A stretch of DNA of 20,564 bases from a virus, in IMG/VR virus record IMGVR_UViG_3300035670_001455, positions 1 through 20,564 of that record; one strand, written 5' to 3'. The translations under genes were made by a program, and so were the position numbers. Positions 1,844 through 7,277 of this stretch are shown piece after piece (position 1 is the stretch's first letter; every line of letters starts with the position of its first letter). A model generated the notes under the pieces. That model saw nothing but the letters and a program-made list of their open reading frames with translations, was not told where the DNA came from and did not search any database.

Positions 1844-2369
1844 GGTAGATGATATTAAACAGCGAATGGTCGAAGCCGGTTTTGCGGGAGACATCGTAGC
1901 TTATTGTGAAAACCTTGAAAATAAGATCAAACGCCTCCGCGCCGAACTCCACGACACACAGATACTCGCCGATCAGCGCAACAGCTACCGTGGCGCGTTG
2001 CATGACAAGATAGCGGAGTGTGATGAGCTTAAGAAGGAGCTTGCCGCCAATTCTACATTGCAACCTGAGATCCTTGAGTGGATAAAGTCTCGTCCAGCCG
2101 AGAGTGAGCATATTAAAGCTATAGTCGAGGAGAATGAAAAACTAAGGAAGGAGCTTGATTTTATGAAGGCCGCTACTTGTGTTGGTTTCTCTGATCCTAG
2201 GCTTGATGGGATGCCTTCACGAAAGCTAATTGACGATATGGTTTATTGCCTTGAGCAAGCTAGTTTTGGACTTCCGAATCCTAACGGCCATAGTGACCAA
2301 GCGGAAATAGATGCGGAAAATTCATTGAAATGGCTCCGACGGATGTGCGATGCGGGAGGTGAATCGTGA
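1833..2369 (+). CDS. Coiled-coil protein, 178 aa, unknown role
   Basis: Starts at ATG 1833 behind a strong GGGAGGTG. Two heptad-rich stretches are visible: residues about 24-70 (ENLENKIKRLRAEL..., CDELKKELAA) and about 88-112 (ESEHIKAIVEENEKLRKELDF). The C-terminus WLRRMCDAGGES ends in the same DAGG coding block found at several other gene ends in this operon. The N-terminal coil resembles that of the gene at 3143 (KRLRAEL versus RRLRAEL), so the two may be diverged relatives. Function unknown. Confidence 0.7.
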   Translation: MLSKVDDIKQRMVEAGFAGDIVAYCENLENKIKRLRAELHDTQILADQRNSYRGALHDKIAECDELKKELAANSTLQPEILEWIKSRPAESEHIKAIVEENEKLRKELDFMKAATCVGFSDPRLDGMPSRKLIDDMVYCLEQASFGLPNPNGHSDQAEIDAENSLKWLRRMCDAGGES

Positions 2370-2509
2370 GCAAAACGCATAAATGGGTTTACGACCCTAC
2401 AATCAAAAGCAAGTGGAAATGCGCCCCTCATCGCTGCGTTCGTTGCGGGATGATTGTCATGATGTACGCCTATTTCAAAGTTGGACCGTGTACGGGAGGC
2501 AACAAATGA
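2366..2509 (+). CDS. Zinc-ribbon-like miniprotein, 47 aa
   Basis: A GTG start at 2366 overlaps the previous stop (GTGA) and follows GGGAGGTG. The product MSKTHKWVYDPTIKSKWKC... contains CAPHRCVRCG, a tight C-x2-H-x-C-x2-C cluster that could bind one zinc ion. Such miniproteins are common in phage early operons and usually uncharacterised. Its end carries another CGGGAGG-type ribosome site for the next gene, with a further ATGA overlap. Confidence 0.6.
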   Translation: MSKTHKWVYDPTIKSKWKCAPHRCVRCGMIVMMYAYFKVGPCTGGNK

Positions 2510-2919
2510 AACTACCTAACAACCTGTTCCCAGAATTCGACAACCCAGACGAGATTCACCTGCTACCGTCAGCGGGTTATATGACGTACGACGATGCGAT
2601 GAAATATGCTGCCGATAATGGAACACGACTCCCAACGAAGGAGGAACTGAACTATCTGATCGCAGTCGGAAAATTGAAGGCTGGTGATGGCGATATGTGG
2701 TCCTCCTCGGTCAATTCCTTCTTCCGTGACAACGCGTGGTACTTCTACAGCTACTACGGCAGCGTCAGCAGCGACGTCCGTAGCGACACGATCGGCGCGC
2801 GTTGTGTCGGTCGCCCCTGCGCTAATACCTTTCCCGCTGCGAGCGAAGCGAAGCCGGACAGGGCAGTCGAGTTGCTGGAGAGGATTGCTAATTCGCTTGA
2901 GGAGCTTTGCAAACGATGA
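2506..2919 (+). CDS. DUF1566-like C-type-lectin-fold protein, possible hypervariable target
   Basis: 137 residues from ATG 2506, which overlaps the previous stop as ATGA and has CGGGAGG upstream. The order YMTYDDAMKYAADNGTRLPTKEEL (residues 25-48), WSSS (65-68), NAW (76-78), then GARCVGR (97-103) is the signature of DUF1566/Lcl-type formylglycine-enzyme or C-type-lectin folds. Residues 104-137 form a helical tail (AVELLERIANSLEEL). In this family the segment between WSSS and R.V is often the variable region of diversity-generating retroelements. Here 19 of the 25 codons from residue 75 to 99 are GAC, AAC, TAC, TTC, AGC, GGC, GTC or ATC, all reachable from AAC by changing A. No signal peptide is present. 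No reverse transcriptase or template repeat was found in the window. Confidence 0.7.
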   Translation: MKLPNNLFPEFDNPDEIHLLPSAGYMTYDDAMKYAADNGTRLPTKEELNYLIAVGKLKAGDGDMWSSSVNSFFRDNAWYFYSYYGSVSSDVRSDTIGARCVGRPCANTFPAASEAKPDRAVELLERIANSLEELCKR

Positions 2920-3149
2920 TGGCAGAAGAACGAATCAAAGAGATCATTGACGGATTGGTTCTGGAACTCATCGATGAAATCAGGCGCATGAGAGGTTGTG
3001 TTTCCGCATTCATCGACAAAGCAGAACATCCTGAGTGGTGCGATTACATGGTGTGTCACAACCGTCGTCCGTGTAGTTGCGGCCTGCGGAGACTGGCCGA
3101 TGAATTTGGATTGAGGCGTTTGGCCGATGCGGGAGGTGAACCATGTTGA
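2916..3149 (+). CDS. Small Cys-rich protein, 77 aa
   Basis: Starts at ATG 2916 (ATGA overlap; GAGGAG at 2899-2904), with a second ATG at 2919. An N-terminal helix (ERIKEIIDGLVLELIDEIRRM) is followed by WCDYMVCHNRRPCSCG, a Cys/His cluster that may bind zinc. The end LADEFGLRRLADAGGEPC contains a short internal repeat of RRLAD and the recurrent DAGG block. Unknown function. Confidence 0.6.
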   Translation: MMAEERIKEIIDGLVLELIDEIRRMRGCVSAFIDKAEHPEWCDYMVCHNRRPCSCGLRRLADEFGLRRLADAGGEPC

Positions 3150-3463
3150 GTGAAGAACGAATTGAAAAGCTAGAAATCCTCGCCGGAACACACGTCGGAC
3201 TAGCACGAAACGAGGTTCGTGAGGTTCTGGCTGAAATCCGCCGCCTCCGTGCTGAGCTGGAAGCAAACAAGTCAGCATTAGAAGCGGCTCGCTCTCATGT
3301 AATCAAACTCAATGCAGAACTGTTCCGGTATCGGGATGGGATTCCTGATAAACAGCATATCCGTGACGCAGAAATGGAATTGGCATTTTCACCGATGCAC
3401 GACATTGTTCGCAGTTGGCTTAGAAGTGTGTCTGATATGGTGGTTAATGATGCACGTTTATAA
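3143..3463 (+). CDS. Coiled-coil protein, 106 aa
   Basis: ATG 3143 follows a GGGAGGTGAACC leader that is identical, through the first codons, to the leader of the gene at 1833. Residues 1-60 are almost wholly helical and heptad-like (VREVLAEIRRLRAELEANKSALEAA...). The rest (SPMHDIVRSWLRSVSDMVV) is amphipathic. It is probably a relative of the 1833 gene or shares its N-terminal module. Function unknown. Confidence 0.65.
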   Translation: MLSEERIEKLEILAGTHVGLARNEVREVLAEIRRLRAELEANKSALEAARSHVIKLNAELFRYRDGIPDKQHIRDAEMELAFSPMHDIVRSWLRSVSDMVVNDARL

Positions 3464-3671
3464 TTTTTTCTCTCATGACGGCTATTCTGTTGTTCAGGAT
3501 ATCAATGGATCTCTGTTAAATGGAGGTGCCTGTTTTCTCGAATACAAAACCAAGGATGATGATCTTTGGATGCTGGCAGAGAAAGGATTTACACCACCTA
3601 ATGCGATTAGGTTTCGCGTGAAGAGAGAAGATGGCGCAATCCGACTTAGCAATGCGGGAGGTGGGAAGTGA
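3447..3671 (+). CDS. Unknown small protein, 74 aa
   Basis: Two adjacent ATGs (3447, 3450) lie within the end of the preceding gene and are preceded by a weak GGTGG. The frame stays open further upstream, but that part is the shadow of the previous gene. The protein (YNFFSHDGYSVVQDINGSLLNG..., DDDLWMLAEKGFTPP) looks like a small beta-rich domain. It ends with LSNAGGGK, the DNA version of the shared GATGCGGGAGGTG junction. No family recognised. Confidence 0.55.
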   Translation: MMHVYNFFSHDGYSVVQDINGSLLNGGACFLEYKTKDDDLWMLAEKGFTPPNAIRFRVKREDGAIRLSNAGGGK

Positions 3672-3859
3672 ACAATCAGATGTGGAAGATTCAAGTCCTA
3701 GTTCAGATGATCGCCGCCATGAAACATAGTCTTGGCCTGACAAACGAGGAAACAGTCGCTGGCTTGCTGATTGTTCAAAAGCGATTGCTTGGCCACGCCG
3801 GAAGGGGGTTGGACGAGTTGATTGACTGTATAAAGGCCGATGCGGGAGGTGATGCGTGA
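3668..3859 (+). CDS. Unknown small helical protein, 63 aa
   Basis: GTG start at 3668 overlaps the previous stop (GTGA) and sits behind GGGAGGTG. The product is mostly helical (WKIQVLVQMIAAMKHSLGLTNEETVAGLLIVQKRLL) and ends CIKADAGGDA with the shared junction block. No recognised domain. Confidence 0.55.
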   Translation: MNNQMWKIQVLVQMIAAMKHSLGLTNEETVAGLLIVQKRLLGHAGRGLDELIDCIKADAGGDA

Positions 3860-4077
3860 GTAGAACAATAACAATAGACGAAAGCAAATCTCCAAAACCC
3901 TGGTGGCCGGGTGATAGCCGTGTGGAATTATTTATGGGCAATGTTCATGAAGCACTAGACAGGAACGGCATAACAGGTCAATCCCGTGTCGATATCTATA
4001 ATCGATGCTATGAAGCGGTTTATGCAGCTATCAAACACTATGCGAAAGAACCCAGCCCCGATGAGGTTAAGCCATGA
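3856..4077 (+). CDS. Unknown small protein, 73 aa
   Basis: GTG start at 3856, coupled to the previous stop and driven by GGGAGGTG at 3844-3851. An ATG at 3852 is closed at once by a stop, so GTG is the only sensible start. The product is soluble and acidic-to-neutral (WWPGDSRVELFMGNVHEALDR, RVDIYNRCYEAVYAAIKHYAKE). Function unknown. Confidence 0.55.
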   Translation: MSRTITIDESKSPKPWWPGDSRVELFMGNVHEALDRNGITGQSRVDIYNRCYEAVYAAIKHYAKEPSPDEVKP

Positions 4078-6470: not shown

Positions 6471-7277
6471 ATGAGTAGGTTTGACAACGGATGGATCAAG
6501 ATCTGGCGACTTAAAGAAAGCCATTGGCTCAACAAAGATCCCAAGGCCAGACTTCTTTGGTGGCAACTTTTAACCATGGCAACTTACAAGCCGAGCAAGA
6601 TCAAAACGGGAGGCAAAATTATTGACATTCCTGCTGGAACCGTAGTGACTAGCAAGGCTGAACTGGCTGAGCTGTGCGGGTTCTCTTTGGACACGTCGAA
6701 ACGCCTTATGAAACTGCTAGAAAGCACCCAACAAATCGCCCAACGGACCAGCCGACAAGGTAGCATCATAACCATTTGTAATTGGAGCAAATATCAGGGA
6801 AACCAAGAAGACGATCAGCCTACGGACCAACCGACAGACCAACCGATAGACCAGCCGACGCATCAGCCGACGGACCAGCCTCTTAGTGAAGAAGATAAGA
6901 AATTAAGAAGAGAAGAAACCCCCCTTACCCCCCGTGGGGGAATGACCCCTAATGACCTGATGAACATCTGGAATGAGAACCGGGGAAGGCTAAGAAAGTG
7001 CGCTTCGATAACCAAGCTTCGCAGGGGATGGGCTAACGCCCGCCTCCTGGAGTGCAGCGACCCGGAGGAGTGGACGGCCTGTGTAAAGGCCATCGCCGAT
7101 AATCCGTTTTACAACGGCCAGAACGATCGGGGATGGATTGCAGACTTTGATTTTCTGGTACGTACCCAAACTCTCGTCAGGTATCGGGAAGGGTTTTTCA
7201 ACAAGAAGCCAAAACGGGAGGCCCAGACAATCGTCTTTGAATGGGCTAAACCCAAATCAGAAGGAGGTATTCTGTGA
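6471..7277 (+). CDS. Phage replication initiator (lambda O-like organiser)
   Basis: 268 residues, ATG after GAGGAAG. The N-terminal 110 residues (WIKIWRLKESHWLNKDPKARLLWWQLL..., SKAELAELCGFSLDTSKRLMKLLES) match the winged-helix origin-binding domain of phage O-like/DnaD-like initiators. A tetrapeptide linker, D-Q-P-T repeated about six times (residues 115-137), separates it from a C-terminal domain (PNDLMNIWNENRGRL..., DNPFYNGQNDRGWIADFDFLV) of the kind that contacts the helicase or its loader. 'F.G....GW.ADFDF.' is a common ending in this family. The repeat DNA under the linker looks like origin iterons. Its stop overlaps the next gene (GTGA). Confidence 0.75.
   Translation: MSRFDNGWIKIWRLKESHWLNKDPKARLLWWQLLTMATYKPSKIKTGGKIIDIPAGTVVTSKAELAELCGFSLDTSKRLMKLLESTQQIAQRTSRQGSIITICNWSKYQGNQEDDQPTDQPTDQPIDQPTHQPTDQPLSEEDKKLRREETPLTPRGGMTPNDLMNIWNENRGRLRKCASITKLRRGWANARLLECSDPEEWTACVKAIADNPFYNGQNDRGWIADFDFLVRTQTLVRYREGFFNKKPKREAQTIVFEWAKPKSEGGIL
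6813..6918. other. Candidate replication origin: 12-bp iterons plus A-rich tract
   Basis: Five 12-bp direct repeats and a partial sixth run from 6813 to 6881, with consensus GACCARCCGACR. A purine/A-rich tract (about 6884-6918) follows. This order, within the initiator gene and between its DNA-binding and C-terminal domains, is the arrangement of the lambda origin inside gene O. Origin function is inferred; the repeats could also be only the DNA of a Pro-rich linker. Confidence 0.5.

Follow-up and report, generated by a model that had tools for sequence, protein, structure and literature searches.

Is a small gene in the early region of a phage the target of a diversity-generating retroelement (DGR) when the sequenced DNA around it holds neither a reverse transcriptase (RT) nor a template repeat (TR) from which its variable region (VR) could have been written? 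The question is raised by IMG/VR record IMGVR_UViG_3300035670_001455, a linear piece of viral DNA, 20,564 bases long, that was analysed whole and is here called the window. Phage DGRs are known chiefly for tail proteins and host adsorption. In Bordetella phage BPP-1, the Mtd DGR has a tail tip protein as its target and a complete cassette in cis; the window gene likewise encodes a phage protein with a candidate lectin-fold VR, but differs from Mtd in both of these respects.

A small lectin-fold gene in the early region

The candidate gene belongs to a run of small genes. Downstream of this run come a DnaD-like gene for replication (6471) and then the genes for the terminase (10995), the portal (12634) and the capsid (15943). 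The features of the locus are as follows.

2366..2509, + strand: small upstream open reading frame (ORF), 47 amino acids, CxxC motif (open frame, sequence)
2506..2919, + strand: small Lcl_C gene (DUF1566, C-type-lectin fold), 137 amino acids; candidate variable protein (Pfam and alignment)
2626..2646, + strand: RLPTKEE family motif in the conserved N-terminal half (alignment)
2698..2709, + strand: WSSS motif, immediately 5' of the variable stretch (alignment)
2728..2802, + strand: VR-like stretch, codons 75-99, 19 of 25 codons NNC (codon counts)
2800..2808, + strand: conserved R-C-V behind the variable stretch (alignment)
2809..2916, + strand: C-terminal tail of 36 residues behind RCV, which makes the VR internal (sequence)
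2835..2845, + strand: proposed hairpin CGCT-GCG-AGCG (fold z-score about 0, chance level)

The 47-residue ORF has no Pfam match. Its stop codon overlaps the ATG of the Lcl_C gene (ATGA), which supports the start at 2506. The family assignment made in the original prediction is supported for the product: Pfam Lcl_C (PF07603) matches it with an E value of 9.2e-6 (26.4 bits, below the curated cut-off of 34.9), and in an alignment with 17 Lcl_C domains the residues R41, P43, E47, W65, W78, G85, R99, C100 and V101 are kept, placing a C-type-lectin-fold domain around the VR. Ser stands where the W-x-x-x-F motif normally keeps a conserved Phe. An obvious signal peptide is absent from the 137 residues, and AlphaFold2 run on the single sequence gave an unusable model (pLDDT 37).

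In human microbiomes, DGRs target DUF1566 more often than any other domain (PMC4159848). The DUF1566/Lcl_C DGR proteins share with the window protein the WSSS...AW...G...R.V frame, NNC-rich codons and fixed frame codons, but have an RT and a TR nearby and a C-terminal VR, whereas the window gene has neither on the record and its VR is internal (PMC4159848; PMC8144416).

Codon signature of the variable stretch

The codons between 2728 and 2802 are exactly as originally described: 19 of the 25 are NNC codons derivable from AAC, and the six exceptions are GCG, TGG, CGT, ACG, GCG and CGT, the two CGT being the only NNT codons. Just upstream, NNC codons number 6.4 per 25, a difference of 12.6; their background frequency in the other genes of the phage is 0.32. 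The probability of at least 19 in 25 is 7e-6 per stretch, uncorrected for position, and that of the NNC count given the amino-acid sequence and the codon use of the phage is 3.7e-4. Third-position C is enriched over T inside the stretch relative to outside (Fisher p = 0.003), and all five serine codons of the core are AGC, none being TCN. GC3 is 0.53 in codons 1-64, 0.80 in codons 65-74 and 0.92 in codons 75-99. Across 33 genes and 3,436 in-frame stretches, the Lcl_C gene ranks first both for the NNC step (14.5 at the best offset, followed by 9.5) and for the length of its NNC run (13 codons, followed by 10). NNC density by itself is not unique, as the capsid gene also holds a stretch with 19 of 25, on a background of 0.50.

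Some further features of the gene fit DGR writing less well. The 19 NNC codons have 38 first and second positions, and C occupies none of them, while A-to-C accounts for 16 of 75 changes (21%) in five verified or closely related VRs. Had ten sites been mutated, as the share of G and T deriving from A leads one to expect, the probability of zero C would be about 0.09; with all 23 mutated it would fall to 0.004. The VRs of known DGR targets are C-terminal (PMC8144416); in the window gene, 36 residues follow RCV. The lack of C, the position of the VR and the Ser at the conserved Phe weigh mildly against a DGR.

Calibration against Lcl_C cores and verified DGRs

The step was calibrated on genomes from a single bacterial phylum, which yielded 119 distinct Lcl_C cores; the NNC content of the last 25 codons ahead of the conserved R was compared with that of the preceding 55 codons, which give a rough background only. 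The Lcl_C HMM of this calibration served to set the register and not to decide membership, because the alignment behind it included the window protein. For the 63 cores whose genomes show no detectable RT, mostly high-GC MAGs in which such absence is not proof, the step ranges from -4 to 10.7, so that the 12.6 of the window gene exceeds them all. The top two of these cores share one genome, which looks like a DGR carrier, its gene pair resembling two VRs; the other RT-free genomes reach at most 7.9, and the cores at GC below 0.58 at most 4.3. Among the 56 cores whose genomes have an RT, the step reaches 13.7, and the window gene is about level with the best.

Two of the DGRs in RT-bearing genomes were verified at the DNA level. 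Of the two VRs of G063:C170, one shows 0 non-A and 19 A mismatches and the other 3 and 15, and G022:C115 has one TR and two VRs with the RT between them; the verified VRs and TRs of both rank at the top of the step list for RT genomes. Because they do, the codon signature is a real mark of DGR writing in the Lcl_C family, although it is no proof for a single gene. The codons of the variable stretch that are not NNC, namely GCG-TGG, codon 16 after the core start and the final R, fall at registers that are constant in the verified families, and the combination of variable NNC/NNY codons with fixed frame codons is thus present as calibrated on verified DGRs. The predicted VR-like signature is borne out, as the sharpest step among the 33 genes and as a match to verified DGRs of the same family. 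In its codon anatomy, the window gene works like a DGR member. Since searches for RT and TR turned up neither, it is not classed as one.

As a separate observation, a further MAG contig (L074, G046:C170) carries two adjacent Lcl_C genes at its end, with VR-like cores of 18 and 19 NNC codons in 25; an RT was not detected in this MAG.

Retroelement parts in and beyond the window

The absence of RT and template repeat from the window, noted at the outset, is confirmed on both counts: RVT_1 is absent from the 20,564-base fragment, and a search of both strands for a TR yielded a best candidate with 22 of 75 non-A mismatches, compared with 19-24 in shuffled controls. DGR targets that lie far from their RT are known. 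Searches of 2.9 million viral contigs for a TR with three patterns (NNC-rich VR, relaxed template, constant 3' end) returned chance matches only. Among the ORFs of the record tested, Pfam matches of the Avd type are absent.

Mutagenic homing would presumably have its initiation site from R-C-V (2800) onward. The original prediction had assigned this role to the small GC hairpin at 2835-2845; its letters exist, but its folding equals that of shuffled sequence (z = -0.01 to 0.23), and it was rejected as an initiation element.

Protein searches of viral contigs, phage isolates and plasmids found no relatives of the window gene. The only relatives of the phage found are L035 (IMGVR_UViG_3300046003_004865) and L097 (3300046005_001688), whose capsid is 89% and portal 59-62% identical to those of the window phage and whose contigs are too short to include the early region. 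The sole genome hit, L034, was rejected, since it aligned only spuriously, with the end of a different protein.

A complete early-region DGR in Pseudomonas phage Haboob

Pseudomonas phage Haboob (OR683404.1, 12412-15380; L172/L177) carries a complete DGR in its early region, between the early methyltransferase region and the cI repressor gene. It consists of two small Lcl_C targets, a four-helix (Avd-like) gene, an RT and a TR, annotated only as hypothetical proteins, a four-helix bundle protein and an RNA-directed DNA polymerase. Over an 84-nt core, the TR and the first VR differ by 13 A mismatches and 0 non-A mismatches. The Haboob target resembles the window gene in being a small early Lcl_C protein without obvious tail function and with the same NNC profile, though sequence identity between the two was undetectable in the searches made; unlike the window, Haboob has the RT, the Avd-like gene, the TR and two targets.

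Relatives of the Haboob target occur in 28 phage records, and a related RT in only four of them, all Pseudomonas phages and one being Haboob itself. Direct tests of complete Pseudomonas phage genomes showed at least 14 that carry a Haboob-type target without RVT_1 (L171, L173 and L178-L189, comprising PMG1, U7, the PA5oct group, FBPa42, U9 and phi_D3). With the Haboob TR as reference, though another template may have written these VRs, the VR of FBPa42 is changed at 17 of 31 A sites and 0 of 68 non-A sites, that of PA5oct at 15 of 31 and 1 of 68, and those of U7 and U9 at 16 of 31 and 2 of 68, all in genomes without RVT_1. The VRs of MIJ3, Paride and 30-2 have drifted, with 11-13 of 68 non-A changes, and several jumbo relatives have identical A sites. 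Within the jumbo group, difference rates are 0.37 at A sites, 0.15 at non-A sites and 0.06 in the upstream gene. The VRs of the RT-less phages hold 15-21 NNC codons per 25, compared with 6.7-10 upstream, as in the window gene.

These RT-less Pseudomonas phages either received freshly written targets or had their targets written in trans. As they carry VRs that match a TR in the absence of an RT, the lack of an RT on a 20-kb fragment counts only weakly against a DGR. The RT-less targets (D3, PMG1, U7, U9, FBPa42 and the PA5oct group) are like the window gene in their VR signature and in lying on RT-free DNA, which in the case of the window is a fragment; they differ in that their TR is known from Haboob, whereas the window gene has no known TR. 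In Deifobo (L183) and Paride (L186), the Lcl_C target frame is open, but the genes annotated there in the deposited records are unrelated hypothetical ones on the opposite strand.

Small Lcl_C genes in other phages

Searching viral contigs for the pattern RLPTKEELN revealed small cytoplasmic-looking Lcl_C genes, and a protein of one record, G143 (IMGVR_UViG_3300009502_000083; L145-L147), then led to the Pseudomonas phages. G143 is a 45.8-kb record of 34% GC with T4-like early genes; it has four small Lcl_C genes in its early region (28835-40061) and no RT on the record. Over 37 VR codons, pairs of these genes differ 7-15 times at positions 1 and 2 and 0-5 times at position 3, whereas upstream of the VRs, in the closest pairs, third positions differ at least as often as the first two. 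One copy has a helical-looking C-terminal tail behind the VR, as the window gene does. The original prediction had called it unusual that the protein looks cytoplasmic and sits in the early region; for such a target, and for one without an RT, Haboob, the other Pseudomonas phages and G143 provide precedents. Two further small phage Lcl_C genes (L140, L142) have neither an RT nor a strong NNC step.

Separately, the 372-kb virus record of a large phage (G145; L143) contains about a dozen Lcl_C-like matches, most of them within 328898-360214, one with 15 of 25 NNC codons compared with 5 upstream; RVT_1 and a template were both not found on that record.

Origin of the codon signature

The window gene is probably a DGR-written variable protein gene, with writing that is present or recent and with RT and template off the record. 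The evidence on the DGR reading is divided: family and codon signature support it, the hairpin does not, and overall it is supported in part. The estimates given here for the competing explanations overlap and are not intended to sum to one. It seems unlikely that the gene encodes an ordinary small phage Lcl_C protein outside any DGR, with a loop favouring N, D, Y, S, G and F and a GC-rich 3' half. If that half came from a GC-rich source, third bases would be C by composition, and the elevated GC3 of codons 65-74, outside the VR, the lack of C at positions 1 and 2, the milder probability obtained once the amino acids are taken as given, the NNC-dense capsid gene and the existence of L140 and L142 are all in keeping with this explanation. 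Yet the sharp step tops every tested RT-free Lcl_C core, those of 63-72% GC included, the core serines are uniformly AGC, and the six frame codons have G or T third bases at registers constant in verified families.

A relic, in which the VR was written in an ancestor or donor and the codon signature outlived RT writing, is rather improbable. The drifted VRs of MIJ3, Paride and 30-2 and the identical A sites of several jumbo relatives exemplify such a state, and an internal VR followed by a tail makes homing less likely; against this, third-base C is nearly intact in the window gene (19 NNC codons, NNT only in the two CGT), which suggests little drift since writing. It is likewise doubtful that the missing part of the phage genome holds the RT and TR of a complete cis-acting DGR. 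The record is a linear fragment, and Haboob and three other Pseudomonas phages hold RT and target together, but RT, TR and Avd-like gene, all present in Haboob, are all absent beside the window gene, and six of every seven records with a Haboob-type target lack the RT.

A proposed model for writing of the window gene

Under the favoured reading of a DGR-written gene, mutagenic retrohoming would have written 2728-2802, the 25-residue binding face of a small protein with a C-type-lectin fold that is probably located inside the cell. An error-prone RT would copy an AAC-rich template, misreading adenines, and the cDNA would replace the VR, leaving third-base C and a few frame codons fixed. RT and template might reside in the unsequenced part of the phage, or in another phage or prophage that either acts in trans or handed over an already written gene; one of these latter two routes must, on this model, have served the RT-less Pseudomonas phages examined. 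The family, the codon signature, the lack of RT and TR on the record and the precedents are shown; the retrohoming event in the window gene, the location of the RT and the ligand are what we infer. The early position of the gene and the lack of an obvious secretion signal make an intracellular binder more likely than a tail fibre, and the product may be a diversified binder of, for example, host defence or rival-phage proteins.

We tentatively raise a wider possibility, which we hold to be less likely than not: small early intracellular lectin-fold proteins could form a phage-wide class of orphan DGR targets in RT-less phages, diversified in trans by prophages or co-infecting phages, with the window gene as a member from an otherwise unknown phage lineage. 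Such shuffled binders would serve phage-host or phage-phage conflict in the cell rather than adsorption. Tail proteins make up most of the viral targets in three DGR clades, and the method of a large metagenome survey was blind to targets away from the RT (PMC8144416). If small early proteins of RT-less phages are written in trans, hypermutation would also serve conflicts inside the cell, and the set of phage DGR targets would be larger than counted. The codon-step statistic offers a simple, template-free way to find orphan targets. In the literature covered, full-text searches on DGR targets that are orphans or written in trans, and on PA5oct together with retroelements, turned up no publication, which does not prove novelty.

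Other repeats in the window

A gene-junction sequence, GATGCGGGAGGTGA, is repeated with its neighbours at 1821-1841, 2348-2376, 3125-3153, 3650-3678 and 3838-3866. In small early genes, the repeats encode C-termini resembling DAGGE and supply the ribosome-binding site that follows, and they look like a module boundary. In the DnaD-like replication gene, a 12-base tandem repeat, CAGCCGACGGAC, spans 6804-6883 and encodes QPTD/QPID in the protein.
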